From the NCBI GenBank assembly GCA_947458275.1, contig CANGYR010000002.1:1-64000 (forward strand): DNA of 64,000 nt, given 5' to 3'. Source of the stretch: Chitinophagaceae bacterium. Lineage in GTDB: Bacteria > Bacteroidota > Bacteroidia > Chitinophagales > Chitinophagaceae. The notes under the pieces are model-generated. The model had not been told where the DNA came from. It did not search any database and worked only from the letters and a program-made list of their open reading frames with translations. Shown piece by piece: positions 3,008 to 54,084 of this stretch (position 1 is its first letter; each line of letters begins with the position of its first letter). The translations under genes and the position numbers were made by a program.

Positions 3008-3158
3008 TTTTGGTTTGGAGTTTGGAGTTTCTCTGCGTAAACTCTGCGTTCTTATTTCTCTGCGGTGAAAATATAAATTGCGCTTTTATGCTTATAGTTT
3101 GGGGTTAAACCATTAAACCAGCGTCAGCGATTTAAACCAGCCGCAGGCGACTTAAACC
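3008..3158. repeat. mosaic intergenic repeat (TTTGGAG, CTCTGCG, AAACCAGC words)
   Basis: Three word families in series: TTTGGAG-type (3008-3030), CTCTGCG-type (3029-3072) and 19-bp units of the form AAACCAGCGTCAGCGATTT (about 3117-3158). The last family runs directly into the stop codon of the minus-strand SET gene at 3159. The CTCTGCG part is the inverted twin of 24248-24290. The spacer lies between the convergent ends of aconitase and the SET-domain gene, so it may act on transcript ends. Confidence 0.8.
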
Positions 3159-3542
3159 TTACTCCGCTTCAAACCAAACCCTCTTCCCATCATCCCAATC
3201 TCCATTGTAGTTGATGGTTAATTCCTCACCTTTTAGAATTTCTCTGACTGTCTGTATGAAGATGTGTTTCTTTTTAAAATCCATCACGTACTCGCAGTTG
3301 CTGGTATAGCTGTGGTTATACATGGGTATAAATCCCAGAGCCATGCAGCATTGATTTTTCTTTTCTCCCCATTCAAAAATATAATCGTGTAAAAGGGTTT
3401 TGTCGAGATATGTTCTGTCTTTTTTTGACATCACAATTACCGGCGAAACCTCAATGATGGTGTCTGCAGGTATTTTCTCAGAAGTGAATACGCCCCTGCC
3501 CTTGCCTTTGATAGATTTTATATGAAGTGAAGGATGCAACAT
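3159..3542 (-). CDS. SET-domain protein (putative lysine methyltransferase)
   Basis: A 127-residue SET domain. Visible hallmarks are KGRGVF near the N-terminus, NHS followed by NC (the conserved NHS..N block) near the middle, and GEELTINY close to the C-terminus. Such proteins transfer methyl groups from SAM to lysine; bacterial substrates are mostly unknown. I chose the ATG at 3542, just before LHPSLHIKS, because the longer start at 3635 would overlap the divergent mgtE start and adds an unrelated N-terminus. The stop codon touches a word array. Confidence 0.85.
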   Translation of the reverse strand: MLHPSLHIKSIKGKGRGVFTSEKIPADTIIEVSPVIVMSKKDRTYLDKTLLHDYIFEWGEKKNQCCMALGFIPMYNHSYTSNCEYVMDFKKKHIFIQTVREILKGEELTINYNGDWDDGKRVWFEAE

Positions 3543-3556
3543 GCTATTTCTTTTGG

Positions 3557-3589
3557 TAAAATTATTAAAGTAACTTGCAGTGCCCAAAA
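3557..3589 (-). promoter_or_regulatory. candidate Bacteroidetes promoter for the SET gene
   Basis: On the minus strand, TTTTG (3585-3589) is followed after 20 bp by TAATTTTA (3557-3564). This approximates the -33 TTTG / -7 TAnnTTTG pattern, with one mismatch in the -7 box. It lies 15 bp upstream of the chosen start and supports that choice over 3635. Confidence 0.35.
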
Positions 3590-3628
3590 TAATAAGTTTT
3601 CCCATATAACTGAAGGCAATAAATTGGA

Positions 3629-5020: not shown

Positions 5021-5193
5021 CTCATACATACAAATGCCGGATAAAAGGCAAAAAATCCCAAAAATGATTAAATTGCAGGTCTAACAAAAGGTTTTTTTCA
5101 TAACTAATTGACTATCAATTATTTTTAATTGTGGCGGTTTAATACAGTTGAAAACTCTCCTTTTATACCAAAACAAACTAAAACAGATAATAC

Positions 5194-13251: not shown

Positions 13252-13297
13252 GTTTGGGGTTTGGAGTTTGGGGTTTAGAGTTAACCCAACTCCAAAA
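13252..13297. repeat. TTTGGAG/TTTGGGG word hairpin inside the ribosomal operon
   Basis: Tandem heptamer-like words (GTTTGGGGTTTGGAG and so on) are followed by their inverse (AACTCCAAAAC). The outer arms GTTTGGAGTT and AACTCCAAAAC pair almost perfectly. The element begins directly after the rpsK stop codon at 13298 and lies between rpsK and rpsD, which are normally tightly spaced. Confidence 0.85.
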
Positions 13298-16301: not shown

Positions 16302-16338
16302 GTTTAAGAGGTTTAAGGAGTTTAAGAGGATTAAGAGG
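16302..16338. repeat. 9-bp word array in the OmpA-like gene leader
   Basis: Four consecutive units of the form GTTTAAGAG (one with an extra base) directly precede the start codon at 16296, separated by ATTTT on the coding strand. On the coding strand the units read CTCTTAAAC, the same words as the downstream arm of the aconitase array at 678-713. Confidence 0.85.
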
Positions 16339-16341
16339 TCT

Positions 16342-16421
16342 CCGCTGTTGGTGTTATCACCAACAGCAAAAGGCGTTATACCCATATTTTCTTGTTGGTG
16401 ATAACACCAACAAGGGTGAAA
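16342..16421. repeat. paired palindromic (REP-like) element, copy 1
   Basis: Two 22-bp palindromes of opposite loop sequence. The first (16345-16366) has 9-bp arms CTGTTGGTG/CACCAACAG with loop TTAT. The second (16391-16414) has arms CTTGTTGGTG/CACCAACAAG with loop ATAA. They are separated by a 24-bp spacer containing AAAAGGCGTT and followed by GGTGAA. The whole unit is repeated at 16460-16540. The layout resembles paired REP sequences. Confidence 0.9.
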
Positions 16422-16459
16422 TATTTTACATTTTTAATTTTAAATTTTAAATTTTTTCC

Positions 16460-16540
16460 CCGCTGTTGGTGTTATCACCAACAGCAAAAGGCGTTGTAGT
16501 CCATATTCTCTTGTTGGTGATAACACCAACAAGGGTGAAT
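16460..16540. repeat. paired palindromic (REP-like) element, copy 2
   Basis: Direct repeat of 16342-16421 with a few spacer changes; palindromes at 16463-16484 and 16510-16533. The palindromes are unchanged while the spacer has drifted, suggesting that pairing is conserved. Single palindromes of the same family occur at 23125-23148 and 24297-24320. Confidence 0.9.
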
Positions 16541-16580
16541 TTACTTTTTACTTTTTACTTTTTACTTTTTACTTTTTTTT
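16541..16580. repeat. TTTTTAC heptamer array at the tgt stop
   Basis: About five TTTTTAC heptamers followed by a T-run lie between the REP pair and the tgt stop codon (TAG at 16581-16583). In tgt sense this reads AAAAAGTAAAAAGT and starts immediately after the stop. Confidence 0.85.
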
Positions 16581-23004: not shown

Positions 23005-23010
23005 TTTTTA

Positions 23011-23105
23011 GGTTTAATAGATTGAACAAGTTCAAGAGGTTAAAAAGGTTCAATAGTTCAATATCTCCACATTTTCAAATCTCCTCATTTCCACATCTCC
23101 AAATT
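23011..23105. repeat. 9-bp leader array of pyrC followed by ATCTCC-type words
   Basis: Six consecutive 9-bp units (such as GGTTTAATA, AGTTCAAGA, GGTTCAATA) occupy 23011-23064 and end 6 bp from the pyrC start at 23004. Beyond them, up to about 23105, are words of the CCACATCTCCAAAT family. On the coding strand the order is (GATGTGGAGAT)n, then (TTGAACC-type)n, then ATG. Confidence 0.85.
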
Positions 23106-23124
23106 TAACTAAATCCTCTGATTG

Positions 23125-23148
23125 CTTGTTGGTGATAACACCAACAAG
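23125..23148. repeat. single REP-like palindrome
   Basis: 10-bp arms CTTGTTGGTG/CACCAACAAG with loop ATAA, followed by GGTGAA: identical to the right half of the paired elements at 16342-16540. It lies between the epimerase stop and the pyrC leader. Confidence 0.9.
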
Positions 23149-23187
23149 GGTGAACTTTCTTATTCCTTATTTTTAATTCCTTATTTA

Positions 23188-24247: not shown

Positions 24248-24510
24248 TTCTCACCGCAGAGAAATAAGAACGCTGAGTTTACGCAGAGATAGATTACTTG
24301 TTGATGATAACACCAACAAGAGTGAGGGGTTTAAAGGTTAAACGGTTTAAAGGTTTAATGGTTAAACCTTAAACCAGCTTCAGCGATTTAAACCAGCTTC
24401 AGCGATTTAAACCTTCTTCAGCGATTTAAACCTTCTTCCAGCACATCTTCACATCTTCAAATTTCCACATCTTCAAATCGTCGAATTGTCAAATCATCAA
24501 ATTGTCAAAT
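24248..24510. repeat. compound mosaic repeat between malQ and the epimerase
   Basis: Four families in series: CTCTGCG/ACGCAGAG (24248-24290), a one-mismatch REP-like palindrome (24297-24320), GGTTTAA words leading into 19-bp units AAACCAGCTTCAGCGATTT (24371-24435), and CTTCAAATTTCCAC-type words (24436-24510). The last family runs directly into the malQ stop codon at 24511. In malQ sense the order is TTTGAC/GATGTG words, 19-bp units, palindrome, ACGCAGAG unit. Confidence 0.85.
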
Positions 24511-27171
24511 TTACCTCCCCGTCGCCAACACCATTCCATGTATCGCATTATTGAAATTTTCCTGTGAGAGTAAAAACTCCAGTGTCAGATGCATCCTGTA
24601 ATTCCAGTAGTGATTGGGATCGGCAGGGATATTGATTCTTTCATCCGAAGGTTTCTCTCTTCTGGTAACAGGATCAATCGACATGAGGTCTTGCAACAAA
24701 AATACACTCCACATTGCAGGTGATTGCATGTGTTGGAGAATGATGTCTCTGGCAATCCAGGGTTCGCAATAATAAGGAGCGGCACCATAGTGACCCAGCA
24801 AATGATTGTAAAAACTCTGTGTAACTTTTCTGTCTTCTTCCCACCACTGACGAATGGTACTCATATCATGCGTAGAAGGTGTTACGACAGATAAATAAGG
24901 AGCGTTGGCAGGATGCGAGAATTCTTCTGTTGCTTTTTTAGGCATCCGTTGTACTTGCAAAGCAAGCATCTCTCTTGATTTCAACACCCCTTCCACCATT
25001 TCTGGTACCATGCCCAGATCCTCCGCACAGATAAGCATATCGGAACTATTTTTCAACGCATCGAGTTTTGTCAATGCTACATTGTACCAAAGCTCATTCT
25101 GATTTTCAAAGAAATAGCGACGATACAACTCATCTATGATTGGCTTTTCATTGTTGTTCAAATAGCGATAGGAAGAAGTATCATTTATACTGATTCTGAA
25201 ATGATAATGATCTTGTTTTTTATCATCTCTGAATAATATCACATTACCCAGCAGATCAAACAAACGCTGCTGAACGTCTGTATTGTATTTATGCTTTTTG
25301 AAATAATCGGCAATAGCTCTTTGTGTTCTGAATTGTTCTTTGAATCTGTTGCCGTCAAAAATATGTTCTCTTACCCAGGCAGTATGTTCGCCAAAAGTTT
25401 CGTTGATAATTGCATCATTGATATATGGTTCACACAATCTGAAGTCATTGAAATGAATGCCGGCTCTGCGGAAATCGTCGGCATGCAAAGGATGTGCCGG
25501 GACAAACACACCGAATATCCCTTCAATGGCATGTAAAGGAATACTCCAGATTCTGAAGAAGCCCAATACATGATCAATACGAATGGCATCGAAATAGTTA
25601 CTCATGTGCTCCATGCGCTGACGCCACCATCCGTAATTGTTCTTCTGCATGGCCTCCCAATTGTATGTAGGGAAACTCCAGTTTTGGCCTTTAGAGGTAA
25701 ACGCATCCGGCGGTGCACCTGCCTGCATGTCCATATGAAACAATGTTGGATTTACCCAGGTGTCCACACTTAATCTTCCTACGCCAATAGGCAAATCGCC
25801 TTTTATGATGATGCCGTTCTTATGCGCATAATCCACCGCATCTCTTAATTGAAGATGAAGGTGATATTGTGTATAGTAGTGAATCGCAATTTTGTCATAA
25901 TGTCCGGAATCGGGACTAACCAATTGCTGGATTTTTTCTTCATCGTAAACCGCATAATCTTTCCACTGACTGAAATCGGCCGTTTTATATTTATCTCTCA
26001 AATAACAGAAAGCTGCATAAGGAACCAGCCATGTTCTGTTGAGCGCAAAGAAATCAAAATAGCCAAAATCATCTTTGAAAGAATACTTTTCCTTTTCATA
26101 CAATTCAGAAATGGCGTTGTATTTAATTTTCACCACACTGTCATAATCCATGGTAGGAAGGTCGTTGATCTTTTTTACCTCCTCCAGCAAATCTTCCGGA
26201 AATTCAAGATTAGCAGCGCGGGCCATTTTCTTTACGTTCAGAAAAACAGGATGGAGCGCGAAAGCAGATATAGCGGAATAGGGATAAGAATCATTTCGGT
26301 CATACGTTACCGTTGTATCGTTGATGGGTAACAGTTGAATCATTTTAATTCCCGTGGCAATAGACCAGTCTGTCAGCAAATTGACATCTGTGAAATCGCC
26401 AATTCCCCAGCTGTTTTCCGACTTGAGTGCGGACAGTTGCACATTCACTCCGGCGCCCTTCCAGGTATGGCCGTAAAAGTTCACAAACTGATGAAGGATG
26501 TTTACCCTACCCTTTTCATTTGCCTGATTCAGCACTCTGTTGCTGCCATCTTCAATATGTCTGATTTGTTTGTTTACCGTATCGTAAATAGCGAATTTAT
26601 ATTCAATAGGGAATGACTCTTTGGAAAGGTTGAGTTTAGCAGTCCAGCAATTATTTTTTCTTTTGAATAATACAGGATTTTCCTTATCCCAGTCATTCAG
26701 TTTTTTTCCTGATCCAATAAGGCAAAGAATATGATCTTGCGGCAAATGAGAAGAGTTTACCTCAAAAATGTGAGTCGGACTTTTGGTAGTTGACTCTTTC
26801 CCTTTTGCGGAGTGTTCTTCAAAAACTTTTGTGAATGCCCGGGTAGCGAAAACGGAACTGTAAAAAGCAATATCCTGCCAGTCGTCGTAAATGAAAACCG
26901 ATTTTGACGTAATTTTTTTGAGATTCAGAGAACGGTTGCTCCACAATTCAGATTTAATAATTGAATTGTTTTCCAACAGGTGATATTGATAATAAAAATG
27001 ACCTTCCTGCTGATCTGCTGAAGGCTCAAATATTCCGTACCAATATTCATCATTCAGGTATTGAAGTGCAATCTCCTGTGCATTGTCTGCATTGTTTTCT
27101 GCATTTTTTAAATGGATGGCCAGAGACTGCCCGTATGGTGTTTTGTATCTGATGTAAAAGTGAACCGTCAT
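24511..27171 (-). CDS. malQ: 4-alpha-glucanotransferase, DPE2-type with CBM20 domains
   Basis: 886 residues. The N-terminal ~250 residues look like two starch-binding CBM20-type beta domains. The GH77 catalytic part follows: QLLPINDTTVT, IKGDLPIGVGRLSVDTWVNP, AIRIDHVLGFFRIW (nucleophile Asp), CAEDLGMVPE (acid Glu) and TPSTHDMSTIRQWWEE. This layout is that of plant DPE2 and Bacteroidetes MalQ rather than the shorter E. coli enzyme. It transfers glucan segments during maltose/glycogen turnover in the cytosol. No other glycogen genes are adjacent. Confidence 0.95.
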   Translation of the reverse strand: MTVHFYIRYKTPYGQSLAIHLKNAENNADNAQEIALQYLNDEYWYGIFEPSADQQEGHFYYQYHLLENNSIIKSELWSNRSLNLKKITSKSVFIYDDWQDIAFYSSVFATRAFTKVFEEHSAKGKESTTKSPTHIFEVNSSHLPQDHILCLIGSGKKLNDWDKENPVLFKRKNNCWTAKLNLSKESFPIEYKFAIYDTVNKQIRHIEDGSNRVLNQANEKGRVNILHQFVNFYGHTWKGAGVNVQLSALKSENSWGIGDFTDVNLLTDWSIATGIKMIQLLPINDTTVTYDRNDSYPYSAISAFALHPVFLNVKKMARAANLEFPEDLLEEVKKINDLPTMDYDSVVKIKYNAISELYEKEKYSFKDDFGYFDFFALNRTWLVPYAAFCYLRDKYKTADFSQWKDYAVYDEEKIQQLVSPDSGHYDKIAIHYYTQYHLHLQLRDAVDYAHKNGIIIKGDLPIGVGRLSVDTWVNPTLFHMDMQAGAPPDAFTSKGQNWSFPTYNWEAMQKNNYGWWRQRMEHMSNYFDAIRIDHVLGFFRIWSIPLHAIEGIFGVFVPAHPLHADDFRRAGIHFNDFRLCEPYINDAIINETFGEHTAWVREHIFDGNRFKEQFRTQRAIADYFKKHKYNTDVQQRLFDLLGNVILFRDDKKQDHYHFRISINDTSSYRYLNNNEKPIIDELYRRYFFENQNELWYNVALTKLDALKNSSDMLICAEDLGMVPEMVEGVLKSREMLALQVQRMPKKATEEFSHPANAPYLSVVTPSTHDMSTIRQWWEEDRKVTQSFYNHLLGHYGAAPYYCEPWIARDIILQHMQSPAMWSVFLLQDLMSIDPVTRREKPSDERINIPADPNHYWNYRMHLTLEFLLSQENFNNAIHGMVLATGR

Positions 27172-27460: not shown

Positions 27461-27477
27461 AGCACTTCGTGCAGTGG

Positions 27478-27516
<39 letters not shown>

Positions 27517-27861
27517 TTATAGAGACCTGATGAGGCCTGTAATGATTTTTGAAATTTCCTCAGTCTGAATAAATAGTTTCTCGAAATCTTTTTCGGAAAT
27601 TTTATTCAGCTCCTTAGCTAAAATAAGCATAGAACGAACCTCGCCACAAGAACCCTTGGCTATATATAGAAAATAGGCAAACTCCTTATTCCCTTTTCTT
27701 TCAAACCCCTCAGCGATATTATTCATTACAGAAACAGATGCTCGTTGTATCTGATCCTTAAAGCCAAAATCTTTACTGTTTTCAAATAGACTATAAATTT
27801 GAACTGTAATACCTTTTGCTTTCTGCCAGGCAATAATATCCTCAAATCTTTCTATACGCAT
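27517..27861 (-). CDS. four-helix-bundle protein (S23/IVP family)
   Basis: 114 residues of the family found inside 23S rRNA intervening sequences and as Avd in diversity-generating retroelements. Recognisable segments are FEDIIAWQKAK at the start, QIQRASVSVMNNIAEGFERKGNKEF in the middle (R-A-x2-S-x3-N-IAEG core), and SCGEVRSML. No rRNA or reverse transcriptase is near, so this is a stand-alone copy. It is flanked by inverted AAAGTATAAAG arrays that start at its stop codon and just before its start, as if the gene and its flanks form one unit. Confidence 0.88.
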   Translation of the reverse strand: MRIERFEDIIAWQKAKGITVQIYSLFENSKDFGFKDQIQRASVSVMNNIAEGFERKGNKEFAYFLYIAKGSCGEVRSMLILAKELNKISEKDFEKLFIQTEEISKIITGLIRSL

Positions 27862-27899
27862 ACTTTGAACTTTATACTTTATACTTTCTACTTTATTTG
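27862..27899. repeat. AAAGTATAAAG heptamer array, right of the IVP gene
   Basis: The inverse of 27478-27516 (CTTTATACTTTATACTTT and so on), beginning directly upstream of the IVP gene start. With the left array it forms inverted repeats of about 38 bp around the gene. Confidence 0.9.
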
Positions 27900-29964: not shown

Positions 29965-30156
29965 AATTTGTGGATTTGGAGATGAGGAGATGAGGAGATT
30001 TGGAGATGGAGTATGGATTTAAGGGTTTAAAACGCTGCGCTGGTTTAACGGTTTAACGGTTGTATTTTTAATTGTCAATTCGTCAAATCGTCGAATTGTC
30101 AAATCTCCACATCTCCAAATCTCCAAATTTTCACATCTTCTCATTGCCCTAAACTC
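29965..30156. repeat. compound repeat with inverted ATCTCC/GGAGAT arms
   Basis: Left arm: GATTTGGAGATGAGGAG-type words (29970-30012). Centre: GTTTAAAACGCTGCGCTGG and GGTTTAACGGTTGTA (30021-30065), the core shared with the elements at 45.1, 46.2 and 47.2 kb. Right arm: CGTCAAATCG and CCACATCTCCAAATCTCC words (30070-30145), which can pair with the left arm. Then CTAAACTCCTAATCC words run into the 3' end of the exosortase-partner gene and supply its last codons and stop. With the dnaK upstream region this fills the spacer 29858-30156. Confidence 0.85.
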
Positions 30157-30483
30157 CTAATCCTCTAAACTCCTAAACTGAGAATAATAGTATCCAAGCA
30201 ACAATATCAACAACCCTACATTAGTGACCGAGGTTACGAGCATCGTGTGGAGCATGAAGGCCATTATAATAAAAACAACAATCCAGGAGTATGGGAACTG
30301 CCAGCGACGCATGATAATGGACAACAGCAGAACTTGTAAGGACGCAATCCCCCAACCCATTATTTTTTCTCCGTATCCCTGAAATCCTTGCCAGCTGCGG
30401 AATACGTTGAGTGCTTTCACACCGTACAGCAATATCCAGAGATACAAGTCTTTCTCTACTTTTTTAAAGAGATCTTTAACCAT
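30157..30483 (-). CDS. exosortase-associated membrane protein (putative)
   Basis: 108 residues with three to four hydrophobic helices (about 12-28, 42-60, 66-82, 86-100). It starts inside the end of the exosortase gene (28-bp overlap), so the two are almost certainly co-translated. I know of partner membrane proteins next to exosortases in Bacteroidetes, but I cannot name the subfamily with certainty. The last residues (SQFRSLED) and the TAG stop are encoded by a TTTAGGAGTTTAGAGGATTAG-like word array at the spacer edge, so the native C-terminus may have been altered. Confidence 0.65.
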   Translation of the reverse strand: MVKDLFKKVEKDLYLWILLYGVKALNVFRSWQGFQGYGEKIMGWGIASLQVLLLSIIMRRWQFPYSWIVVFIIMAFMLHTMLVTSVTNVGLLILLLGYYYSQFRSLED

Positions 30484-30998: not shown

Positions 30999-31008
30999 TG
31001 AACATGTT

Positions 31009-31126
31009 TGGGGTTTGGTTGCGCTTCGCGCGTTTGGGGTTAACGTTTAACGTTAAAATAACTTTGGACGTTGAACCTTGAACGATTACTATCTTCACAT
31101 CGTCGAATTGCCGAATTATCAAATTA
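31009..31126. repeat. word-repeat spacer left of mntA, including direct repeat copy 1
   Basis: TTTGGGGTTTGG words and a GCGCTTCGCGC mini-hairpin precede the 50-bp direct repeat 31055-31104. That is followed by GTCGAATTGCCGAATTATC words running into the mntA stop codon at 31127. Confidence 0.85.
31055..31104. repeat. 50-bp perfect direct repeat, copy 1
   Basis: Identical base for base to 31967-32016, same orientation, 912 bp apart. It contains TTTGGACGTTGAACCTTGAA and ends CACATCGTC. The pair brackets the MNT and HEPN genes exactly. Confidence 0.97.
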
Positions 31127-31435
31127 TCAAAAATTTATTTCAATACCTGTTTTTTTAATTTCATAGGCGAAGGGATTATTGGTATTAAAATCTTTTGTAT
31201 TGATGGGATGAGGCTCTATTCTGAGATCTACTTTCCTCCTAAGCTTCATTAACTGAGTTTGTACAGAAAAAAAATCGGACATATTATCCAGAACTACTGC
31301 AATATCAATGTCACTTTCTTCTTTTTGCACTCCCTTGGAAAATGATCCGAAAAGATATACTTCCTTGACACCAAAATCTTGCGGTATCAACAGTACATAA
31401 TTTTTTATTTTCTCTATAATTGATTGATCAACCAT
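31127..31435 (-). CDS. MNT-type nucleotidyltransferase (antitoxin-like)
   Basis: 102 residues of the minimal nucleotidyltransferase family. The motif GSFSKG (about 31-36) is followed by EESDIDIAVVL carrying the two metal-binding aspartates, with the third acid in VDLRIEP (about 71). It overlaps the upstream HEPN gene by 22 bp. In the known HEPN/MNT (HepT/MntA) systems the MNT protein neutralises the HEPN RNase by adding AMP. All three acids are present, so this copy looks active. Confidence 0.88.
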   Translation of the reverse strand: MVDQSIIEKIKNYVLLIPQDFGVKEVYLFGSFSKGVQKEESDIDIAVVLDNMSDFFSVQTQLMKLRRKVDLRIEPHPINTKDFNTNNPFAYEIKKTGIEINF

Positions 31436-31815: not shown

Positions 31816-31889
31816 AAGGTAAATATAATCAATATTGCAATTTAAAAAATACCCCACATTCTTATTGCTTATTTGGCATTGCCGCTGTG

Positions 31890-32140
31890 AGGCGTTTGGA
31901 GTCGACCGCGCTTCGCGGGTTTGGTTGCGCAGAGCGAGGAACGTTCAACGTTTAAAGTTCAACGTGAAAATAACTTTGGACGTTGAACCTTGAACGATTA
32001 CTATCTTCACATCGTCACATTTAAAAAAACGTCCAAAATTCGAAGCGTAAACTTGAATCTTGGACGTTGAATATGCTGAAGTGGTTGAAAAGGTTGAAGA
32101 GGTTCAAGAGGTTGAAAAACTACAAACCAAAAACCACAAA
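31890..32140. repeat. word-repeat spacer between HEPN and PVDGG protein genes
   Basis: CGCGCTTCGCGGG mini-hairpin, GTTCAACG words and the 50-bp direct repeat copy 2 (31967-32016) come first. Then follow four 9-bp units (GGTTGAAAA/GGTTGAAGA/GGTTCAAGA; 32083-32118) and CTACAAA/CCACAAA heptamers (32120-32140) that run into the stop codon of the next minus-strand gene. Confidence 0.88.
31967..32016. repeat. 50-bp perfect direct repeat, copy 2
   Basis: Identical to 31055-31104. Perfect identity in fast-changing spacer DNA suggests a recent event or ongoing conversion. Recombination between the two copies would delete the HEPN/MNT pair and place the exosortase genes next to the PVDGG gene. Confidence 0.97.
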
Positions 32141-32404
32141 CTACAAACTAGAATTTTCCTTCCTCTTCTTATACTGCCTCAATTTCTTCGCTCCATATCC
32201 CGCGCCAACTGCTAGCACAATGGATAATCCGCCATCTACAGGCACTTCTGGAGGGCCCTCAAGACCTGTACCACTTGGTCCTCCTCCTAGTGGTCTTGGT
32301 AATACCAGCTGAGCATTAGACACAAGAGATATGAACATGAACAGAAAGACCATGGTCATATTTAGGAATAAATATTTCATAGATTTGAATAAGCTCGATT
32401 GCAT
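32141..32404 (-). CDS. small secreted protein with PVDGG C-terminal sorting signal
   Basis: 87 residues. Signal peptide at about 9-31 (ends SNAQ), then a short Pro/Gly-rich mature part. The C-terminal tripartite signal follows: P55-V-D-G-G59, a hydrophobic stretch (60-72, LSIVLAVGAGYGA) and a basic tail KKLRQYKKRK. This is the layout of the PID-CTERM type found with Bacteroidetes exosortases. Only about 23 residues would remain between signal peptide and sorting motif. It starts 18 bp after the stop of the 4041-residue T9SS protein, so the two are probably one transcript. It is the best candidate substrate for the exosortase at 30456-30998. Confidence 0.82.
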   Translation of the reverse strand: MQSSLFKSMKYLFLNMTMVFLFMFISLVSNAQLVLPRPLGGGPSGTGLEGPPEVPVDGGLSIVLAVGAGYGAKKLRQYKKRKENSSL

Positions 32405-41400: not shown

Positions 41401-44400
41401 TGGCTGTTAGGTTTGTAAAGGTAGCTACACCCAAGGATGCACTTACTGAAGTGGTACCACCCAATGTCCAGGTAGCTTCCGCTGCAGATGCCGTAATACT
41501 TGCTGAGCTACCGGTAATAGTGTTACCATACTGATCCTGCACTGTAACAACCGGCTGCGTAGCTAACGCATTGCCATTTCTTGTAGGTGCAATAGGTTGA
41601 GTTGTAACAGCCAATTTATTGGCGGCAGCAGCATTAATCGTAGCACCTTGATTAGCAGAAGTGATTGTAGAAGGAGAAGTACTAGCTAACGTTATTGTTG
41701 GCGTACCTGATTTAGTATCTGTATAAGTAAACGTTGTACTACTGCTTCCATTAGAAATGGTTAAAGAAACCGGATTAAAGGTTACCGCACCTGTTGAATT
41801 GCTTGACAAATTAATAGTTCTGTTTGCATCTGTTGAGTTTGCGTTACCAAATGCATCCTGTCTTTGAACCGTGATTGAGGAGGATGCCACACCGGCAGTG
41901 GTGGTTACAGCAGAAGAGGTGATGGCCAATTTGGTAGATGCACCTGCACTAACCGTAACGCTTAACCGATCAGTTAATGTTGATGATATCGTTCCGTCTG
42001 TTACAGCAATAGTGGCTGATTCAGCATTATATAAAATCATGGACCCTGAGCCAACACCATTTGTAAATGTTATGCTGGTAGAAGAACCGAATGCTATGGC
42101 TGCTGATGAAGCGTTTGTAACCGTTGGAGCGGTTACCGGTGATGCAGAGCTGGTGGCTCCGCTAAAAGTAAGTGATTTACTTCCGGTATAACCGGTTGCA
42201 GTATTTCCGTTAGCATCCTGTGCTGTTATGGTAATTGTTTGTGCTGAACCGGCAGTTTGCGTTCCGGTTCCGGTAACAATTAACTTGGTAGCAGTGCCTG
42301 CTGTATAAGTTATAGTGGAGGTGACCTGACTGGCCGTACCTGCCTTAACAGTTGTACCACCTAAGGTTGCACCAAATACACCACTGCCAGTAGCAGTGGG
42401 TGAAGTTACAGTAGCAGTGTAGGTGCCATTAGCATTATCAGTAACGCTACCTATTGTACCGCTACCGCTGGATCTGGTAATAGCCACTGTAGCACCGCCG
42501 GCTGACAGGTTGTTACCATATTGATCTTTGGCAGTTACGGTTAAGGTTTGAATGCTTGAACCATTGGCTGTAATGCTTGCTGAGGTGGGAGTAAGTGTGG
42601 ATTGATTTGCATTGGCTGCGCCAACTGCAATTGCCTGAGTTAAAGTAGAAGTTGCGGTGTAGCCGTCTGAGTTAATTATTATAGATTTATTACCCGGCGT
42701 TTGCAACAAAGCATCATTGGCTGGATTAAAGCGAATTAATCCTGAAATTGTTTTATCGTAAGCCGTAGCCGACAGCGTGCTGCCGCCGACTGTGATGCTG
42801 CTGATATTAGTTCTCCATGTAGCATCGTCGGTTCCTAGTGACACATCAAAGGTTCCATCAACTGTTGCGCCTGTTGCTGCAGTGAGTGTGGGTGGAGTAG
42901 CATTGCCGCTGGAATTTATAGTAAAGGACTGTGTACCGGAAGCCGATGCCGCACCGGATGTAGTTACTCCAACATTTACAGATCCGGAACTCGCAATGTC
43001 ACTAGCGCTTATAGATGCTGTTAATTGAGTTGAGCTTACAAATGTAGTTGTACGATTACTTCCTCCCCATGTTACGGTTGAAAGTCCGCTTACGAAATTG
43101 GTACCGTTTACGGTTAAGGTAAAACCTACTCCTCCTGCTGTGGCGCTTGTTGGAGATATGCTTGTTGTGGTTGGGGTAGATTGAGATGCAATTGTACGTG
43201 AAACCGACGCCATTGAGCCGGTATTTAAAGGTGCTGATGTTGTGAATGCAGCAGAACCAATACTAACCCCAACACTTGCTGCTGTGGCTCCTGAAGCGAT
43301 ATCTCCTACAATTAAATAATTTCTGGCTGACGTAAAACCTGTTTCACCGGAAATAGTAATGCTCATTGTAGTACCAAAGCTGACAGCGGATGCTGAAACA
43401 GCGGCATCAGTGCCGCCAGTTGTATTAATTAGCCCATCACCATTAAAATCTCTGAAAATACGAACATTCGAAACATCAGAAGAAGTGGCAGTAGCACCAG
43501 TAACGGTTAGTGCAGTAAAATTAGCTCCTTGAGTAGGTGGGGTAACGGTAAAACCCGCCAAAGGAACATTAGTAGCTGCTTTCAAAACATTGCCGGATAA
43601 TTGTGTGCCATAGGCTGCTAAAGTCGAAGTTGTGGCTGCGGCGAGATTTGACCATGCGGTTGCGGATGGAGAAGCATATGCGACTCTTATAGCATCAATA
43701 TTATAAGCCGGAGTTGTTGAAGCTGTTGCTCTGGTGAAAAAACCAAATGCATTTGTAAAGTTAGATGCGTTAGCTACTCCGCTAGTAATAGATGCTTCTA
43801 CACCTGAGCTTGTTGAAGGCTCTGAAGATAGTGAGGGATTAACCCATAAGTATACAGGATCTGAATTAGTTACTCCAGTATAAGAATATCTAACCACAAT
43901 CAAATAAGTTGTCCCTGCATTTAAAGTAGTAGTACCATATGTTCCTGTACCACCAGCTTTTGAGATCCCTAAATTATAAGTTGAAGATGAAACATATTTT
44001 ATAAAAAGTCTAGCGAAATAAGATGTAGCATTATTATTCAATCCCGCAATATAATCTACTACTCCGGTCCCAATTCCAGTTGGAACATTTAATAAAAAAG
44101 AGTAGTAGAAAGTATTTGAAGAGCTTGAAACACTGGTTGATCCAGGACCTCCAACACCAGCAGTTCCACTTGGGACATTCACATAATTACCACCTCCTCC
44201 ATTGTAGCCAGAATATGTTAAGGACAAAGAATTTGCTACTTTAAACCCAGACACTGCACCTGAAAATTGAGTCCAACTCAATCCTCCTGAACCAGAAGCT
44301 GTATTAACCGCAGTACCGCTAGTTGCTGCTGTAGCGTCTTGATTAAATACTAACTGCCCCCACCCCACGTTACTTATCATTAGAAGAAGAATCAACATCA

Positions 44401-44548
44401 GTGATGAGAGATGAGTGATGAGTGATGAGTGTTTCACTTTTAACTTTTCACTTTTTACTTCAGCACACACGAGTGATGAGTGATGAGTGTTAAGTGATGA
44501 ATCGTTGATGTAGATGTTTGTCATACAATCTTTTTTTTGTTGTTGCAA
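32423..44548 (-). CDS. giant T9SS-secreted surface protein, 4041 residues
   Basis: Signal peptide core at about 50-65 ([16 protein letters not shown]). Then: a LamG-like beta domain (about 70-310), an IPT/TIG-type domain ([14 protein letters not shown]), several invasin/Big-1-like repeats with [18 protein letters not shown], and fibronectin III-like domains (about 1270-1700). Four autotransporter-associated strand repeats follow (patterns [26 protein letters not shown]; about 1940-2280 and 2860), two InlB-type B repeats ([18 protein letters not shown]; about 3170-3320), and a T9SS sorting domain (about 3957-4041, RIYPNV...[10 protein letters not shown]). It is Thr/Ser/Gly-rich, adhesin-like and probably exported across the outer membrane by the T9SS. 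The first 50 residues are encoded by word repeats. Confidence 0.93.
44398..44500. repeat. TCATCACTC and AAAGTGAAAAGT word arrays inside the giant gene
   Basis: On the plus strand: GATGAGTGATGAGTG words (about 44401-44432), CACTTTTAACTTTTCAC words (44434-44460), then GAGTGATGAGTGATGAGTG (44471-44490). On the coding strand these make the peptide segments [17 protein letters not shown] and [10 protein letters not shown], just before the hydrophobic core of the signal peptide. Confidence 0.88.
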
Positions 44549-44973: not shown

Positions 44974-45178
44974 GGTTTAAGTCGCTGACGCTGGTTTAAG
45001 TCACTGCGTTGGTTTAAGTCGCTGCGCTGGTTTAAGTCGCTGCGCTGGTTTAAGTCGCTGCGCTGGTTTAAATCGCTGCGCTGGTATAAATCGCTGCGCT
45101 GGTATAAGGGTTTAACGGTTGTAACCACATTTTCAAATTTCCAAATTTCCACATCTTCAAATTTTCACATCGTCAATT
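44974..45178. repeat. compound repeat, copy 1 (7 units)
   Basis: Seven units of GGTTTAAGTCGCTGCGCT type (first 19 bp, then 18 bp each; 44974-45100). A conserved core follows, GGTATAAGGGTTTAACGG then TTGTAACCACATTT (45101-45134), and then CAAATTTCCACATC words to 45178. A short head GCGCGGAGCGGCG precedes it. The same element, with four and two units, is at 46.2 and 47.2 kb, and a shorter relative is at 30.0 kb. Confidence 0.93.
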
Positions 45179-45707: not shown

Positions 45708-46163
45708 ATGTTATTTTTTCTTGACATAGACGGCGTGATGGTGCCTGCCAAAGGCTGGAAAACTCCGGAATTTCTGAGTGATGGATTTCCGGCATTCAGC
45801 ATTAAAGCCGTACGTGCCCTTCAGAACTTGATTGTTGATAACGACACCGTAATACTTACAACTTCTCATAAATCAAGATTCAGCATTGATCAATGGAAAA
45901 ATATTTTCAAGAACAGGGGCATTGTAATCAAAAAAATAAAACTGCTTCCAGACAATTCCAATCATGCCAGCAGAAAAGATGAAATTATCAATTGGCTGAA
46001 TGCAAACAAGCCCAATGAAGAATTCATTATTATTGATGATGATCAATCTTTGAATGAGTTGCCTGAATTGTTAAAGGATCATTTGATACAAACGAGTTCT
46101 CTCATAGGCCTCACTGAAGATCATACCGAAATTATAAAAGCTATCTCACTAAACAGGAATTAA
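45708..46163 (+). CDS. HAD-family phosphatase-like protein
   Basis: 151 residues. HAD motif I appears as FFLDIDGVMVP at the N-terminus (nucleophile and acid Asp), motif II as ILTTSHKSR, and motif IV as IIDDDQSLNELPELL. It resembles the HAD domain of the 'Swiss Army knife' RNA-repair proteins, which act on RNA ends. Second gene of the DGHHR cassette. A compound repeat starts a few bases after its stop codon. Confidence 0.78.
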   Translation: MLFFLDIDGVMVPAKGWKTPEFLSDGFPAFSIKAVRALQNLIVDNDTVILTTSHKSRFSIDQWKNIFKNRGIVIKKIKLLPDNSNHASRKDEIINWLNANKPNEEFIIIDDDQSLNELPELLKDHLIQTSSLIGLTEDHTEIIKAISLNRN

Positions 46164-46182: not shown

Positions 46183-46365
46183 GGTTTAAATCACTGCGTT
46201 GGTTTAAACCACTGCGTTGGTATAATTCGCTGCGCTGGTTTTATTCGCTGCGCTGGTATAAGGGTTTAACGGTTGTAACTACATTTTCAAATTTTCACAT
46301 TTCCAAATTTTCAAATCTTCAAATTGCCGAATTGTCAAATCGTCAAATTGGCACATCAGCAAACT
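46183..46365. repeat. compound repeat, copy 2 (4 units)
   Basis: Four 18-bp units (46183-46254) of GGTTTAAATCACTGCGTT type are followed by the core GGTATAAGGGTTTAACGG (46255) and TTTCAAATTTTCAC / GAATTGTCAAATCGTC words to about 46365. Same orientation as copies 1 and 3. Confidence 0.93.
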
Positions 46366-46519: not shown

Positions 46520-46864
46520 ATGATTACGTTTTTTGAAGTCATCTTTTCAGAAGAAGCATTTGAATTTTTAAAGGGCTTGGGGAAAAAGGAGCAAAATAAA
46601 ATTCTATTTAATATTCGGAAAGCACAGGTAGAAAAAGACACCGCTTTATTCAAAAAATTAACTGATGATATATGGGAATTCAGAACATTATATAACGGTA
46701 TTCAATACAGATTATTGGCTTTTTGGGACAAAACATCTTCTATGAAAACACTGGTAATTTGCGCACACGGATTCATAAAAAAAAGCAACAAAGTGCCGGA
46801 TAGAGAAATCTTGAAGGCGATGGAATTAAAAAAATATTACTTCAGCATTAAAGAAAAGAAATGA
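46520..46864 (+). CDS. RelE/HigB-like toxin
   Basis: 114 residues of the Gp49/HigB-like RelE superfamily. Typical segments are EVIFSEEAFEFLKGLGKKEQNKI, a LFKKLTDDIWEFRTLYNGIQYRLLAFWD core with the conserved W-E-x-R and Y-R, and the C-terminal ICAHGFIKKSNKVPDREI. These toxins cleave mRNA on the ribosome. The toxin gene comes first, as in higBA operons, and overlaps the antitoxin by 4 bp. Confidence 0.9.
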   Translation: MITFFEVIFSEEAFEFLKGLGKKEQNKILFNIRKAQVEKDTALFKKLTDDIWEFRTLYNGIQYRLLAFWDKTSSMKTLVICAHGFIKKSNKVPDREILKAMELKKYYFSIKEKK

Positions 46865-47156: not shown

Positions 47157-47325
47157 GGACGCGGAGCGCCGTTAACGGTTTAAGACACTGCGTTGGTTTA
47201 AATCGCTGCGCTGGTATAAGGGTTTAACGGTTGTAACCACATTTCCAAATTTTCACATTTCCACATCTTCAAATTTTCACATCTCCACATCTCCAAATTT
47301 CCACATCGTCGAATTGTCGAATTGT
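47157..47325. repeat. compound repeat, copy 3 (2 units)
   Basis: Head GCGGAGCGCCG, two 18-bp units (47177-47212), core GGTATAAGGGTTTAACGG (47213), then CCACATCTTCAAAT and GTCGAATTGTCG words that run into the GtrA stop codon at 47326. It begins 9 bp after the antitoxin stop on the other side. Confidence 0.93.
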
Positions 47326-47802
47326 CTAATTATTCTTAATCCTAAAAGTAAAATACTTCTGCGTAACATAACTCACCGCAATGATGATGATGGTACAAAC
47401 AAGCTGGCTGATGTATGGTTCTATCTTGAGCATGTCAACAAAAAGTTTGAGCAGTAGATAGTTAAGCCCTAAATTAAAAAAGAAAGAAAGTAAATACCTG
47501 ATAAACTGTACCCTACCTCTGAGGTATGATTCGGTGAAGACAATATAACGGTTAAGCATAAAGCCCACCATGAAAGTTGTAGTGCCGGACACAAACAAAG
47601 CCGCCATGTGCGGTTTAAAAACCAAAGGACCTACTGAAATATTTTCATTAGCAAATACGAAATAGCATAAAAAATTATAGAGCAGCAATCCCAGCACAGT
47701 ATTAGCACTGCCACAGGCGGCATATCTGTAGGTGACTACAGGCATGAACTTCCTGAAAGGAGGATAAAAGAAATCCAGTGTGGCAGTGATGATGTTTTTC
47801 AA
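47326..47802 (-). CDS. GtrA-family membrane protein
   Basis: 158 residues with four hydrophobic helices (about 24-46, 64-84, 100-120, 128-150) and the FMLNRYIVFTES turn typical of GtrA/DPMS-like proteins. Members flip or support transfer of polyprenyl-linked sugars across the inner membrane. No glycosyltransferase is adjacent. It starts 11 bp after the ABC-F stop. Confidence 0.85.
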   Translation of the reverse strand: MKNIITATLDFFYPPFRKFMPVVTYRYAACGSANTVLGLLLYNFLCYFVFANENISVGPLVFKPHMAALFVSGTTTFMVGFMLNRYIVFTESYLRGRVQFIRYLLSFFFNLGLNYLLLKLFVDMLKIEPYISQLVCTIIIIAVSYVTQKYFTFRIKNN

Positions 47803-51277: not shown

Positions 51278-51400
51278 CCCTTAAACAAAAGCAAATTAAA
51301 ATTGTATTTATTGCAGTTGTGTGGGAAGGCGTTTTCCCCAATTTACTTACAGAATCTATTAATAAATAATGATTAAGAAGATAGATTCATTTTTAATGTG

Positions 51401-51408
51401 TAAATTTG
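51401..51408 (+). promoter_or_regulatory. candidate -7 box for pfkA
   Basis: TAAATTTG matches TAnnTTTG and lies 39 bp before the chosen pfkA ATG (51448). It overlaps the alternative TTG start at 51406, which argues against that start. Confidence 0.4.
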
Positions 51409-51447
51409 ACACAACAAAAAACAGCAGGTTTTAATTCAAATACTACT

Positions 51448-52431
51448 ATGTCGAAAAAAGTACACAAAATCGGAGTCTTAACTAGCGGCGGTGACAGTCC
51501 GGGTATGAATGCTGCCATCAGAGCGGTGGTAAGAACCGGCAATTATCACAAGCTGGAAATGTACGGCATCATGCGCGGCTACAGCGGTATGGTGGAGGAT
51601 GATATTTTCAGAATGGAAAACCGCAGTGTGGCCAATATCATTCAGAGAGGCGGGACTATTCTTAAGACCGCCCGTTGCATGGAATTTTTCACCCCCGAAG
51701 GAAGAAAAAAAGCATACGATAATCTGACAAAAAGAGGCATTGACGGATTGGTAATCATTGGCGGCGACGGTAGTTTCCGTGGGGCACAGACGTTCAGCAA
51801 TGAATATGATATTCCCTGCATAGGACTTCCGGGTACTATTGATAAAGATATTGCAGGTACAGATTTTACCATAGGATTTGATACGGCGGTGAATACTGCG
51901 GTTGAAGCAATAGATAAAGTAAGAGATACAGCTGATGCACACGATCGTTTATTCGTGATAGAGGTGATGGGAAGAGATGCCGGCTACATTGCTTTGCACA
52001 GCGGTATTGCTACAGGGGCAGAGAACATTCTCATCCCTGAAAGAAAAACCAATATTGAAGATGTAATCAAATCTTTGGAAGAAAGAGAGAAACGTAAAAA
52101 ACTGGTGAATCTGATCATCGTTGCAGAGGGAGATGAATTTGGAGGAGCAAATGAGCTAACCAATGTAATTAAAGACAGACTTCCTAAAATGGAGGTGAGG
52201 GTATGTATCCTCGGCCACATTCAACGTGGTGGCTCGCCTACCTGTATGGACAGAGTCATTGCCAGCAGAATGGGCTATCATGCCGTTGAGTGCCTGATGG
52301 AAGGCAGACACAATGTTTTTGTGGGCATCCTGAACAACAAAATGAATTATACTCCCCTGAACGAAGCCGTAAAGAAAAAACAACGTATCAATGAAGAGTG
52401 GATGAATATCGTTAAGATACTTGCCACATAA
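51448..52431 (+). CDS. pfkA: ATP-dependent 6-phosphofructokinase
   Basis: 327 residues from MSKKVHKIG. A longer frame opens with TTG at 51406, but it adds 14 unconserved residues and starts inside a promoter-like box. Motifs: TSGGDSPGMNAAIR (ATP), IGGDGSFRGA, LPGTIDKDIAGTDFTIGFDTA (catalytic Asp), GRDAGYIAL, LGHIQRGGSPTCMDR. It commits fructose-6-phosphate to glycolysis. Pyruvate kinase follows 87 bp downstream on the same strand. Confidence 0.97.
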   Translation: MSKKVHKIGVLTSGGDSPGMNAAIRAVVRTGNYHKLEMYGIMRGYSGMVEDDIFRMENRSVANIIQRGGTILKTARCMEFFTPEGRKKAYDNLTKRGIDGLVIIGGDGSFRGAQTFSNEYDIPCIGLPGTIDKDIAGTDFTIGFDTAVNTAVEAIDKVRDTADAHDRLFVIEVMGRDAGYIALHSGIATGAENILIPERKTNIEDVIKSLEEREKRKKLVNLIIVAEGDEFGGANELTNVIKDRLPKMEVRVCILGHIQRGGSPTCMDRVIASRMGYHAVECLMEGRHNVFVGILNNKMNYTPLNEAVKKKQRINEEWMNIVKILAT

Positions 52432-52518
52432 CATGAACGCATAAACGAAAAATTAACAAAATCAATTAATCAACAACCGAATCATTTACCGGAAATAAAG
52501 GTTGCATAAAAGAACAAA

Positions 52519-54009
52519 ATGAGCAAAAAAATTGAAAAGTACCTGCACCAGGAGATGGATAATCAGGCGGGTATTGCGCACTCTCAAAAAAGAACAAAGA
52601 TTGTTGCTACCGTTGGTCCTGCCTGCAGCACTTACGACAAATTATTATCTCTTGTAAAAGCCGGGGTGAATGTATTCAGACTGAATTTCTCTCACGGCGC
52701 TCATGATGACAAAAAAGCAATCATTGAAGCCATTCGCAAAATCAATAAAACAGAACCTTACAACATAGCCATTCTGGGAGACCTTCAGGGACCTAAACTC
52801 AGAGTAGGAGAAATAGAACATGGAAGCATAGATTTGAAACCCGGAAATGATATCATTTTCACTACAGAAAAAATCGTGGGTACTAAAGAGAAAGTATATG
52901 TCTCCTACCCCAACCTCACCACCGATGTGAAAGTAAATGAGCGTATCTTTCTGGATGACGGGAAGATGGAAGTCAAGGTAAAAGAAATACTGAATAACAA
53001 GGATGTATTGGTAACGGTGGTGCTTGGAGGAATCTTACTCCCTAAAAAAGGCGTGAATCTGCCCGACAGTGATTTGAGTATGCCATCACTGACAGAAAAA
53101 GACATTGCCGATCTGGAGTTTATCATAGAGCAGAACCTCGACTGGGTGGCGCTGTCTTTTGTGCGTAAGGCCATTGATATCATCGAACTTAAAAAAAGAA
53201 TCAAAGAAAAGAACAGCAAAATAAAAGTCATTGCCAAAATTGAAATGCCGGAAGCATTGAAAAACCTTCGCGACATCATCATTGAGAGCGATGGCGTAAT
53301 GATTGCCAGAGGCGACCTGGGTGTTGAAATACCCATTGAACAAGTGCCTGTTATGCAGAAAGAAATCATCCGCAAGTGTATGCACCGCGCGAAGCCGGTT
53401 ATTGTAGCCACACAGATGATGGAGAGCATGATAGACCGTACCAAGCCCAACAGAAGTGAAGTGAGTGATGTGGCCAATGCCGTTCTGGAAGGGGCAGATG
53501 CCGTAATGTTGAGCGGAGAAACAGCCATGGGGAATTTCCCTACATTAGTGGTGGAAACCATGAGTAAAATCATTACCGAAGTGGAAGCAAGTGTATATGA
53601 TTATGACCGTGATGACATACTGGCTCCTCAACCCCACTCTCCCTCTTTTATGAGTGATGCCATTTGTTACAGCGCCTGTAAACTTGCCAGTGATGCCCAT
53701 GCCAATGCTATTATTGGTATGACTCAAAGCGGCTATACTGCGTTTATGCTTAGCAGTTACAGACCAAAAAGTCCATTATATATTTTCAGCAAGGAAAGAA
53801 CGTTGATTAGCCAGCTTAGCTTAAGCTGGGGCGTGAGGGCATTCTACTATGGTGAAGAAGAAAGTCTGGATGATATCATTTTTGATCAAATAAATATTCT
53901 TAAAGAAAGAGGATACATCAAAAAAGATGATGTCGTGGTAAATACAGGAAGTACGCCGGTGGATAAGCATTTGCCGACGAATATTATTAAGATCACCAAG
54001 GTTGAATAA
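52519..54009 (+). CDS. pyk: pyruvate kinase
   Basis: 496 residues. The N-terminus KIVATVGPACSTYDKL and RLNFSHGAHDDK belong to the A domain. The B domain is at about 90-190. The active site is in IKVIAKIEMPEALKN and MIARGDLGVEIPIEQVP (K+ and Mg2+ sites), then MLSGETAMG. The C-terminal domain ends with NTGSTPVDKHLPTNIIKI. Catalyses the last step of glycolysis; the pfkA-pyk pairing suggests joint control. The stop is followed by an inverted TTTAG array shared with the convergent trpF-like gene. Confidence 0.97.
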   Translation: MSKKIEKYLHQEMDNQAGIAHSQKRTKIVATVGPACSTYDKLLSLVKAGVNVFRLNFSHGAHDDKKAIIEAIRKINKTEPYNIAILGDLQGPKLRVGEIEHGSIDLKPGNDIIFTTEKIVGTKEKVYVSYPNLTTDVKVNERIFLDDGKMEVKVKEILNNKDVLVTVVLGGILLPKKGVNLPDSDLSMPSLTEKDIADLEFIIEQNLDWVALSFVRKAIDIIELKKRIKEKNSKIKVIAKIEMPEALKNLRDIIIESDGVMIARGDLGVEIPIEQVPVMQKEIIRKCMHRAKPVIVATQMMESMIDRTKPNRSEVSDVANAVLEGADAVMLSGETAMGNFPTLVVETMSKIITEVEASVYDYDRDDILAPQPHSPSFMSDAICYSACKLASDAHANAIIGMTQSGYTAFMLSSYRPKSPLYIFSKERTLISQLSLSWGVRAFYYGEEESLDDIIFDQINILKERGYIKKDDVVVNTGSTPVDKHLPTNIIKITKVE

Positions 54010-54013
54010 CATC

Positions 54014-54084
54014 GTTTGGTAGTTTAGTGGATTAGAAGTTTAGAGAAGTATATACCTAAACCCCTAATCCCCTAAACGTCTAAA
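54014..54084. repeat. inverted TTTAG/CTAAAC word array at convergent gene ends
   Basis: Left words TAGTTTAG, GGATTAG, AAGTTTAG; right words CTAAACC, CCTAATCC, CCTAAACG, CTAAAC. The arms pair over GGATTAG-x2-GTTTAG, with the right arm one unit longer. The right arm runs into the trpF-like stop codon TAG at 54085. It could end both transcripts. Confidence 0.85.

Follow-up and report, generated by a model that had tools for sequence, protein, structure and literature searches.

Why should tandem arrays of short words begin at the stop codons of so many neighbouring genes? In the window, a stretch of 64,000 nucleotides from a Chitinophagaceae genome, the original prediction listed 11 minus-strand genes followed at once by such words. 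It read them as polar elements starting at stops, with word families in a fixed order and explained by no known protein or RNA class. The observation was partly confirmed and the interpretation partly supported. Words do follow all 11 stops: a TRF tandem array was present within 25 nt of ten of them, and at the stop at 23188 AATAAGGA-like words were recognized by eye only. The stop codon itself may lie within a word, as had been noticed, the TRF array overlapping the stop at 27517, 30157, 32141 and 54085.

On the minus strand, TRF detected 19-bp GGTTTAAGTCGC... units immediately 3' of the stop at 3159 (3113..3158), and TTTGGAG-type words followed by AACCCCAAACTCC words after the stop at 13298 (13252..13297). 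An AAAAAGT heptamer array follows the stop at 16581 (16540..16577; TRF, 5.4 copies, 100% match), and a C-word array, CCTCTTAAA in gene sense, occupies the far side of the same gap (16302..16339; TRF). The gap after 23188 (23010..23187) contains the AATAAGGA words, an inverted repeat, GGAGATGTG octamers (TRF, 23057-23106) and, by eye, CCTCTTGAA words. After the stop at 24511 come an octamer array of TTTGACAA/GATGTGGA (24442..24511) and, farther away, 19-bp GGTTTAAATCGCTGAAGCT units with TTTAAACC words (24328..24432), both found by TRF. The compound at the stop at 30157 is a nested palindrome, in which GTTTAGG words, octamers, AACCGTTAAACC and an 18-mer are succeeded by C-strand octamers (29978..30179; TRF). 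Octamers and GTTCAACG words follow the stop at 31127 (31050..31131; sequence and TRF), and TTTGTAG heptamers run across the stop at 32141 into CAACCTCTT words (32066..32150; TRF). All these features are on the minus strand.

Two of the three remaining TRF compounds do not obey strict polarity relative to the upstream gene. One (18-mers, GGTTTAACGGTTGTAA, octamers; 44974..45176, plus strand) is in a divergent gap and follows no stop; a 108-aa ORF in this gap consists of the array itself. A copy of it at 46183..46350 (plus strand) follows the plus-strand stop at 46163 in an order reversed relative to that gene, and another sits at the stop at 47326 in a convergent gap (47177..47331, minus strand). 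The order of families is not fixed either: between 24.4 and 45 kb, the 18/19-bp unit switches strand with respect to the octamers. By eye, the recurrent order goes back to a single compound that is present in similar copies (at 30, 45, 46 and 47 kb).

In a sample of 864 kb (30% of the genome), word arrays made up 8.8% of the intergenic and 0.4% of the coding sequence. TRF returned 251 rows of period 6-25, overlapping rows counted, across 121 of the 564 gaps, whereas second-order Markov copies of these gaps gave 21; at a score of at least 60, there were 95 real rows and none in the copies. With overlapping rows removed, and with a 12-nt margin, the count was 187 arrays in 128 gaps. The expected enrichment at stops, with few arrays in coding sequence, was borne out: 68 of 759 stops had an array at most 10 nt downstream, and 22 of 734 starts had one at most 10 nt upstream. 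In same-strand gaps with arrays (n = 87), arrays were separated from the stop by a median of 12 nt, and from the start by 59 nt. Array cover was 17% in convergent, 9% in co-directional and 5% in divergent gaps, and 20 of the 110 divergent gaps contained an array, that is, arrays also occur away from gene ends. Periods of 8 and 9 were encountered besides 7 and 14, the commonest in S23 arms. Nine word families, defined by hand-made patterns, take in 132 of the 187 arrays, and several are common to many gaps; words therefore also spread within the genome, and locus-specific renewal alone is insufficient. Arrays of such density are peculiar to this genome (7.7% of intergenic sequence, compared to 1.7-3.0% in four relatives).

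Most words contain G and almost no C on one strand. Within a gap, G-word arrays were placed to the left of C-word arrays in 35 cases and to the right in 2, regardless of gene strands; in the 40 stretches of the sample without the window, the proportion was 27 to 0. The G-word and C-word arrays of a gap are the two arms of a palindrome, and together they fill the space from one gene to the next, the stop-codon anchor being their outer end. An arms-only palindrome illustrates this in a convergent gap of the window, where the stop at 54085 is followed by the G-word arm TTTAGACGTTTAGGGGATTAGGGG (54055..54085, minus strand; TRF and sequence), which is matched by the C-word arm CTCTAAACTTCTAATCCACTAAACTACC, in gene sense (54014..54048, minus strand; sequence reading). 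The anchoring at stops was real, but polar arrays starting at stops are only half of the pattern.

The window also holds a complete word-palindrome cassette, with a gene in its loop. This gene (27517..27861, minus strand) encodes a 114-aa protein of family PF05635, the 23S rRNA intervening-sequence protein (23S_rRNA_IVP), also called S23 and Avd-like (Pfam E 5.9e-35; PDB relatives 2gsc and 2rld). Its upstream G-word arm consists of AAAGTAT words in gene sense (27860..27896, minus strand; TRF period 7), and its downstream C-word arm, of ATACTTT words in gene sense, runs from the S23 stop (27473..27517, minus strand; TRF period 7 at 27478-27517 with 93% match, and period 14 at 27473-27517 with 90%). 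The two arms pair in the minimum-energy RNA fold. In the first 40 nt after the 11 stops, read in gene sense, G exceeds C in nine cases and C exceeds G in two (13298 and 27517); this is expected at 27517, since the stop there belongs to the S23 gene itself and the downstream arm is made of C-words. Seven S23 copies were found in the genome. Each of the seven has a G-word array on one side and the matching reverse complement of that array on the other, the words being specific to the copy, and in the 7x7 matrix of arms the diagonal is highest in every row and column. In gaps without S23, palindromes exceeding the 95% cross-gap level numbered 26 among the 121 with arrays (some 6 expected) and 30 among the 307 array-free ones (some 15 expected). 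A matched hairpin in every gap is ruled out by the former figure, which indicates that most arrays of this genome are single arms or mixed families.

Arm matching was assessed by cross-locus rank, at p <= 0.05 per locus, uncorrected. Among the best-scoring copies in the matches listed, which are no random sample, S23 arms matched in 18 of 29 same-genus loci and in 16 of 27 order-wide loci (2 of 29 with short flanks being left out), and matching was not significant in 11 loci of each set. For named genomes, the set comprised the best 80 of at least 581 relatives, an uneven sample of which 79 were usable: arms matched in 61 and not significantly in 18. Divided by hand from the record titles, the matching loci were 35 of the 50 from Bacteroidota and 26 of the 29 from elsewhere. 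The full cassette form occurs in many bacterial phyla. Of the genomes examined, 55 of 59 in the same genus and 50 of 60 across the order had PF05635 itself above its curated cut-off. As a control, the flanks of the Gp49 gene matched in 1 of 26 loci (4 of 30 left out for short flanks); this gene is often followed by its antitoxin gene, which makes its flanks an imperfect control. All genes of the 864-kb sample with both neighbours and both flanks of at least 25 nt (378 of 790) served as another control. Only 5 of these 378 single genes scored at least 20, and two of the five were S23; no other S23 gene of the sample had both its flanks within reach, the one at the end of stretch L042 falling outside. 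A second gene family, PF13366 (GxxExxY nuclease), was represented by 30 loci, or 29 without the partial copy L187, of which 28 were usable; arms matched in 13 of these 28, again the best-scoring copies among the matches listed. There are thus two protein families that go with the arrays, contrary to the initial view that no known class explains them.

Boundaries, composition and folding were analyzed on S23 loci chosen for an arm score of at least 16. Among the neighbour ORFs that could be identified, the stop faces the cassette in 81 of 84 on the left, and the start does so in 74 of 83 on the right. From the left-neighbour stop, the arm is a median of 2 nt downstream (58 of 81 within -10..+15). 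Since cassettes lie between same-strand genes, a pure transcript-end role, as first envisaged, fits poorly. G exceeded C in 84 of 88 upstream arms, and downstream arms contained 29% C and 8% G. In 82 of 88 predicted minimum-energy RNA structures, at least half of the upstream arm was paired with the downstream arm, and the predicted arm duplex had a median of -39.4 kcal/mol, compared to -10.3 across loci. Mirrored unit order was considered as a proof of arm-to-arm copying; shared order was detectable in 38 of 103 loci only, which leaves this argument with low power. The idea that arms serve to encode stops was also set aside as weak (299 stop triplets in upstream S23 arms, versus 271 +- 6.6 in dinucleotide shuffles); PF13366 arms showed no stop-triplet excess (30 versus 27 +- 3).

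The gap before the thiolase gene could be compared at the same site in 30 genomes. S23 was present in 10, and 9 had short plain gaps of 13-43 nt; of the rest, 6 had arrays alone (by eye), 4 had other content and 1 was unreadable. The present genome has, by eye, neither S23 nor array at this site. S23 words there differ between genomes, with GTATTAAGTAC shared by two of them (L271 and L273). In orthologous pairs, the words drift and the matching within the locus is kept. Joint growth of both arms, which bears on the original suggestion of templated repeat growth, receives indirect support: words vary between species, yet match within a locus. Turnover is not fast everywhere, however, since different species have the same word family, by eye, at the rfbBA site and at the ALDH site. 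In an S23 tree built on 139 of 145 rows, three of the four rfbBA-site S23s form a clade (100/98), joined by the copy of the present genome (L066) at 89/12. Another clade (100/93) is made up of the four ALDH-site rows that the tree contains. S23 therefore looks vertically inherited at those sites. As a proof of a single old insertion at the thiolase site the tree was set aside, as it gives no answer there.

Three other explanations have to be weighed against these data. If S23 and its word arms were a transposable or integrating DNA unit, the arms would be terminal inverted repeats and the solitary arrays MITE-like derivatives. Presence and absence at one site across genera would be expected of such a unit, as would S23 with matching arms in many phyla (among the best 80 of at least 581 relatives) and the word families that S23 arms share with solitary arrays of the same genome. 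Yet copies within one genome differ in arm sequence, as the terminal repeats of known elements do not, the room between the arms, judged by its size alone, fits little besides S23, and the rfbBA- and ALDH-site clades look vertically inherited; we consider this reading unlikely. The genome has 3 Y1-transposase matches (2 above cut-off) and 1 reverse-transcriptase match.

The arrays might instead be bidirectional transcription terminators or rut-like signals, in which G-words followed by C-words place a hairpin or a C-rich, G-poor RNA ahead of the next gene from either side. The high cover of convergent gaps, the symmetry of the G-before-C rule and the C-rich composition of S23 downstream arms all agree with this, but most S23 cassettes separate genes of the same strand and end just short of the second start, so that a terminator would silence the second gene unless it had its own promoter, and arrays also occur in divergent gaps. 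A role of this kind seems quite improbable. Plain slipped-strand repeats, tolerated between genes and growing where they disturb neither promoter nor coding sequence, hence after stops, with S23 there by chance, are the least probable of all. The lower frequency of arrays near starts and in divergent gaps and the microsatellite-like drift of units would follow naturally; the G-before-C order is left unaccounted for, and reverse-complement arms around S23 and PF13366, against the single matching locus of the Gp49 control, already make this reading hard to hold.

We favor, with a probability of roughly 0.6, the reading that the arrays are arms, or remnants of arms, of intercistronic word palindromes that are IVS-like and have rapidly renewed arms, with a small helical-bundle gene inside when complete. 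In an operon mRNA, the arms would pair into a long stem that has the S23 gene in its loop, like the stem of a 23S rRNA intervening sequence (IVS). By insulating or processing the insert (for example through RNase III), this stem may allow the operon to tolerate it, and would for that reason be kept. Words may expand within an arm by slippage and be copied to the opposite arm by template switching across the hairpin, so that both arms would change together and the words of each locus become its own by drift. Solitary arrays, in this genome mostly single or unmatched arms, would be gene-less elements, elements that lost their gene, or decaying arms. A broader version is possible but doubtful: selfish intercistronic elements found bacteria-wide, with complementary arms made anew at each site as tandem words and rewritten in concert, carrying at least two unrelated cargos (the S23/Avd-like bundle and the GxxExxY PD-(D/E)XK nuclease), the cargo protein, besides host replication, driving arm synthesis or copying. 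Under the palindrome reading, PF05635, a common family of unknown function, gains a consistent genetic setting, 'word' repeats that otherwise resemble noise get an explanation, and rRNA intervening sequences may be a special case of a broader intercistronic element. It also raises the question of how arms several hundred bases apart stay matched while their words are replaced.

Known repeats share parts of this arrangement. REP/REPIN elements are intergenic palindromes and cyanobacterial STRRs are heptamer arrays, and the present arrays resemble both in these respects. In REP/BIME with RAYT, one palindrome is repeated over the genome and copies share sequence, whereas the seven S23 arm pairs of this genome differ from one another; its solitary arrays do share word families. 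The TAACTGA heptamers of Bacteroidetes, Cyanobacteria and Beggiatoaceae are intergenic direct repeats, some over stop codons (MacGregor 2015, PMC4679880). Tandem heptamers in intergenic space are common to these, to STRRs and to our arrays. The TAACTGA repeats are one fixed word, read there as a possible translational-regulation site before starts, with one inverted set among 170, in contrast to S23 arms, which are inverted and whose words vary. The tandem heptanucleotide and octanucleotide elements of Geobacter metallireducens are similar in being 7-8-mers; some classes are mostly paired and drawn as switching strands, and they are interpreted as regulator binding sites or RNA elements (PMC2700814). 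The terms '23S' and 'four helix' are absent from the main text of both articles, and titles and abstract openings in the open-access PMC literature yielded no link of PF05635 or PF13366 to such arms.

The closest parallel is the 23S rRNA IVS, for instance of Coxiella, in which complementary ends form a stem, the S23 gene lies in its loop and the distribution is patchy (PMC4990558). S23 cassettes have the same patchy distribution, and the gene likewise lies in a loop between complementary ends able to form a closing stem, as in the 82 predicted folds above. They differ in being located between protein genes and in having arms of tandem words, different at each locus of a genome. An Rfam scan of 20 non-Bacteroidota S23 loci at the gathering threshold found no rRNA and one tRNA in these loci. 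Avd of diversity-generating retroelements is described as a protein similar to PF05635 (PMC10053308); the sole reverse-transcriptase match of the present genome is on contig C41, which carries none of the seven S23 matches.

The window belongs to a draft genome, probably that of a member of the Bacteroidota, of 2.885 Mb in 87 contigs, which was sampled through the window and 40 stretches of 20 kb each. Genes were called by dicodon score (792, or 790 once array-made ones were removed), and tandem arrays of period 6-25 were detected with Tandem Repeats Finder. These arrays made up 8.8% of the bases between genes and 0.4% of those in coding sequence; the 251 array rows, compared to 21 in Markov-2 copies, were spread over 121 of 564 gaps, and their commonest periods were 7, 8 and 9. 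The intergenic share in arrays was 7.7% in this genome, against 1.7 to 3.0% in four relatives (G004, G008, G018 and G105, 100 kb each): it is an outlier among the genomes compared. The original prediction of word arrays directly after eleven stop codons was borne out in substance. Past the gene at 24511, the gap is only a few nucleotides long in several relatives, and another relative, G003, shows a gap with its own arrays there.

Among 187 non-overlapping arrays, the median absolute GC skew was 1.0, that is, in at least half of them a given strand contained G without C or C without G. In gaps with both orientations, the G-array preceded the C-array at 35 of 37 transitions (co-directional gaps 23/23, convergent 6/7, divergent 6/7; 27/27 in the 40 stretches alone). 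This rule is symmetric under reverse complement, and therefore the repeats after stop codons, which are real, constitute a 5' arm; the prediction had missed the other half, a 3' arm of the reverse-complement kind that precedes the next start. Some gaps contain true palindromes of one family (for example, 54014-54085), and many have one arm alone or two differing families.

A gene of family PF05635 (S23, the 23S rRNA intervening-sequence protein) lies at 27517-27861, between two AAAGTAT arrays. The genome has seven PF05635 matches, all flanked, by eye, by a G-word array upstream and the reverse complement of the same array downstream, with word sets that differ among all seven. When the upstream arms were compared with the reverse-complemented downstream arms (7x7), each diagonal value topped its row and column. 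Only 5 of 378 single genes with usable flanks in the sample reached an arm score of 20, namely both testable S23 genes, an Rrf2-like gene, CoaE, and a PD-(D/E)XK nuclease gene (PF13366). The case for this anatomy and for its association with the protein is strong, and we call an S23 gene between two arms a 'cassette'.

Within the genus, 56 of 59 genomes contained PF05635 (E <= 0.001), and across the order 51 of 60 did, the present one included. Tested against a cross-locus null (p <= 0.05), the arms matched in 18 of 29 same-genus and 16 of 27 order-wide best-scoring S23 loci; each of the genome's own seven loci ranked as high as it could (p 0.077, the lowest value attainable with seven loci). 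For the control PF05973, the arms matched in 1 of 26 loci (median p 0.67). Among named S23 loci (the best 80 of 581 relatives, 79 usable), the arms matched in 35 of the 50 from Bacteroidota and in 26 of the 29 from elsewhere, including Gallionella, Thiobacillus, Pirellulales, Syntrophus, Acetothermia, Acidobacteria and Vreelandella titanicae BH1. Arms of the same kind flanked PF13366 at 13 of the 28 loci compared (median p 0.055), with longer units (8-13, the commonest for S23 being 7 and 14).

Placement was counted on 88 S23 loci, all with an arm score of at least 16. The gene to the left faced the cassette with its stop in 81 of 84 cases, and the gene to the right with its start in 74 of 83. 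The upstream arm began a median of 2 nt past the left stop; the downstream arm ended a median of 11 nt ahead of the next start, only 35 of 74 lying within -10 to +15. Of 30 genomes of the order compared at the pre-thiolase site, 10 carried S23, 9 had a plain gap of 13-43 nt, 6 showed nothing but arrays (by eye), 4 had some other sequence and 1 could not be read; for one S23 case (G085), S23 was taken from the profile match and one side only was read. The words vary among the S23 cases; GTATTAAGTAC is common to loci L271 and L273.

In 82 of the 88 cassettes, which were chosen for arm score, the predicted minimum-energy RNA structure had half or more of the upstream arm paired to the downstream arm, with the S23 gene enclosed between them. 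Because the arms still match although their words are not the same from locus to locus and drift from one orthologue to another, arm pairing seems to be kept. The word family was kept across species at two sites, rfbBA (GTTTAGG) and ALDH (GTTTGGGG), by eye. Same-strand placement favours a role of the pairing at the RNA rather than the DNA level, although it is also expected from the need of S23 for transcription. Slippage and template switching across the hairpin would be the simplest known mechanism by which a pair of inverted arms could stay similar; such switching is known as quasi-palindrome correction.

The nearest known system is the 23S rRNA intervening sequence (IVS), where S23 is located in the loop of a stem (PMC4990558). 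An IVS sits in rRNA, whereas a scan of 20 S23 loci from outside the Bacteroidota detected rRNA in none of them, and the cassettes are therefore not classed as IVSs. We propose that they work like an IVS without being one: an IVS-like RNA function is most likely, if unproven, and descent of the genome's many solitary arrays from such cassettes is plausible, equally unproven. Avd is similar to PF05635 (PMC10053308), and MacGregor's TAACTGA heptamers (PMC4679880) and the Geobacter tandem heptamers (PMC2700814) may be relatives in kind of the word arrays. Searches of the open-access literature turned up no paper linking PF05635 or PF13366 with such arms.

An S23-bearing open frame of about 290-315 aa occurs in loci L070, L092, L096, L098 and L099, at the ALDH site, which we take from sequence to be aldehyde dehydrogenase/kynureninase-like. 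In L070 it crosses the C-word arm, so that the array would be translated as a linker, and carries on into a second part resembling RidA. The word string CTCTGCGTAAACTCTGCGTTCTTATTTCTCTGCGGTGAA and a variant are found at 3030-3070 and 24250-24291, and the same kind surrounds the genome's own PF13366 gene (locus L164).

Similar compound repeats in direct orientation (44974-45176, 46183-46350 and 47177-47331) bracket small accessory genes: a HAD_SAK_2 gene (45708-46163), and a PF05973 toxin-like gene (46520-46864) with a presumably helix-turn-helix-like partner ending at 47148. These genes look as if inserted by recombination between the repeats. At 31000-32140, two similar stretches containing GATGTGAAGATAGTAATCGTTCAAGGTTCAACGTCCAAAG, also direct, flank a pair of adjacent genes, one for a nucleotidyltransferase (31127-31435) and the other at 31414-31857. 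The inverted repeat TTGTTGGTGATAACACCAACAA and near copies recur among the gap arrays at 16342-16578, which holds two 118-bp copies, and at 23126-23150 and 24297-24320. Two 9-bp arrays, AAAACGTTC (100% match) and AAACCTCTT (92% match), lie at 564-713, directly ahead of the gene starting at 722, and a 4041-aa open reading frame occupies the minus strand at 32423-44548.
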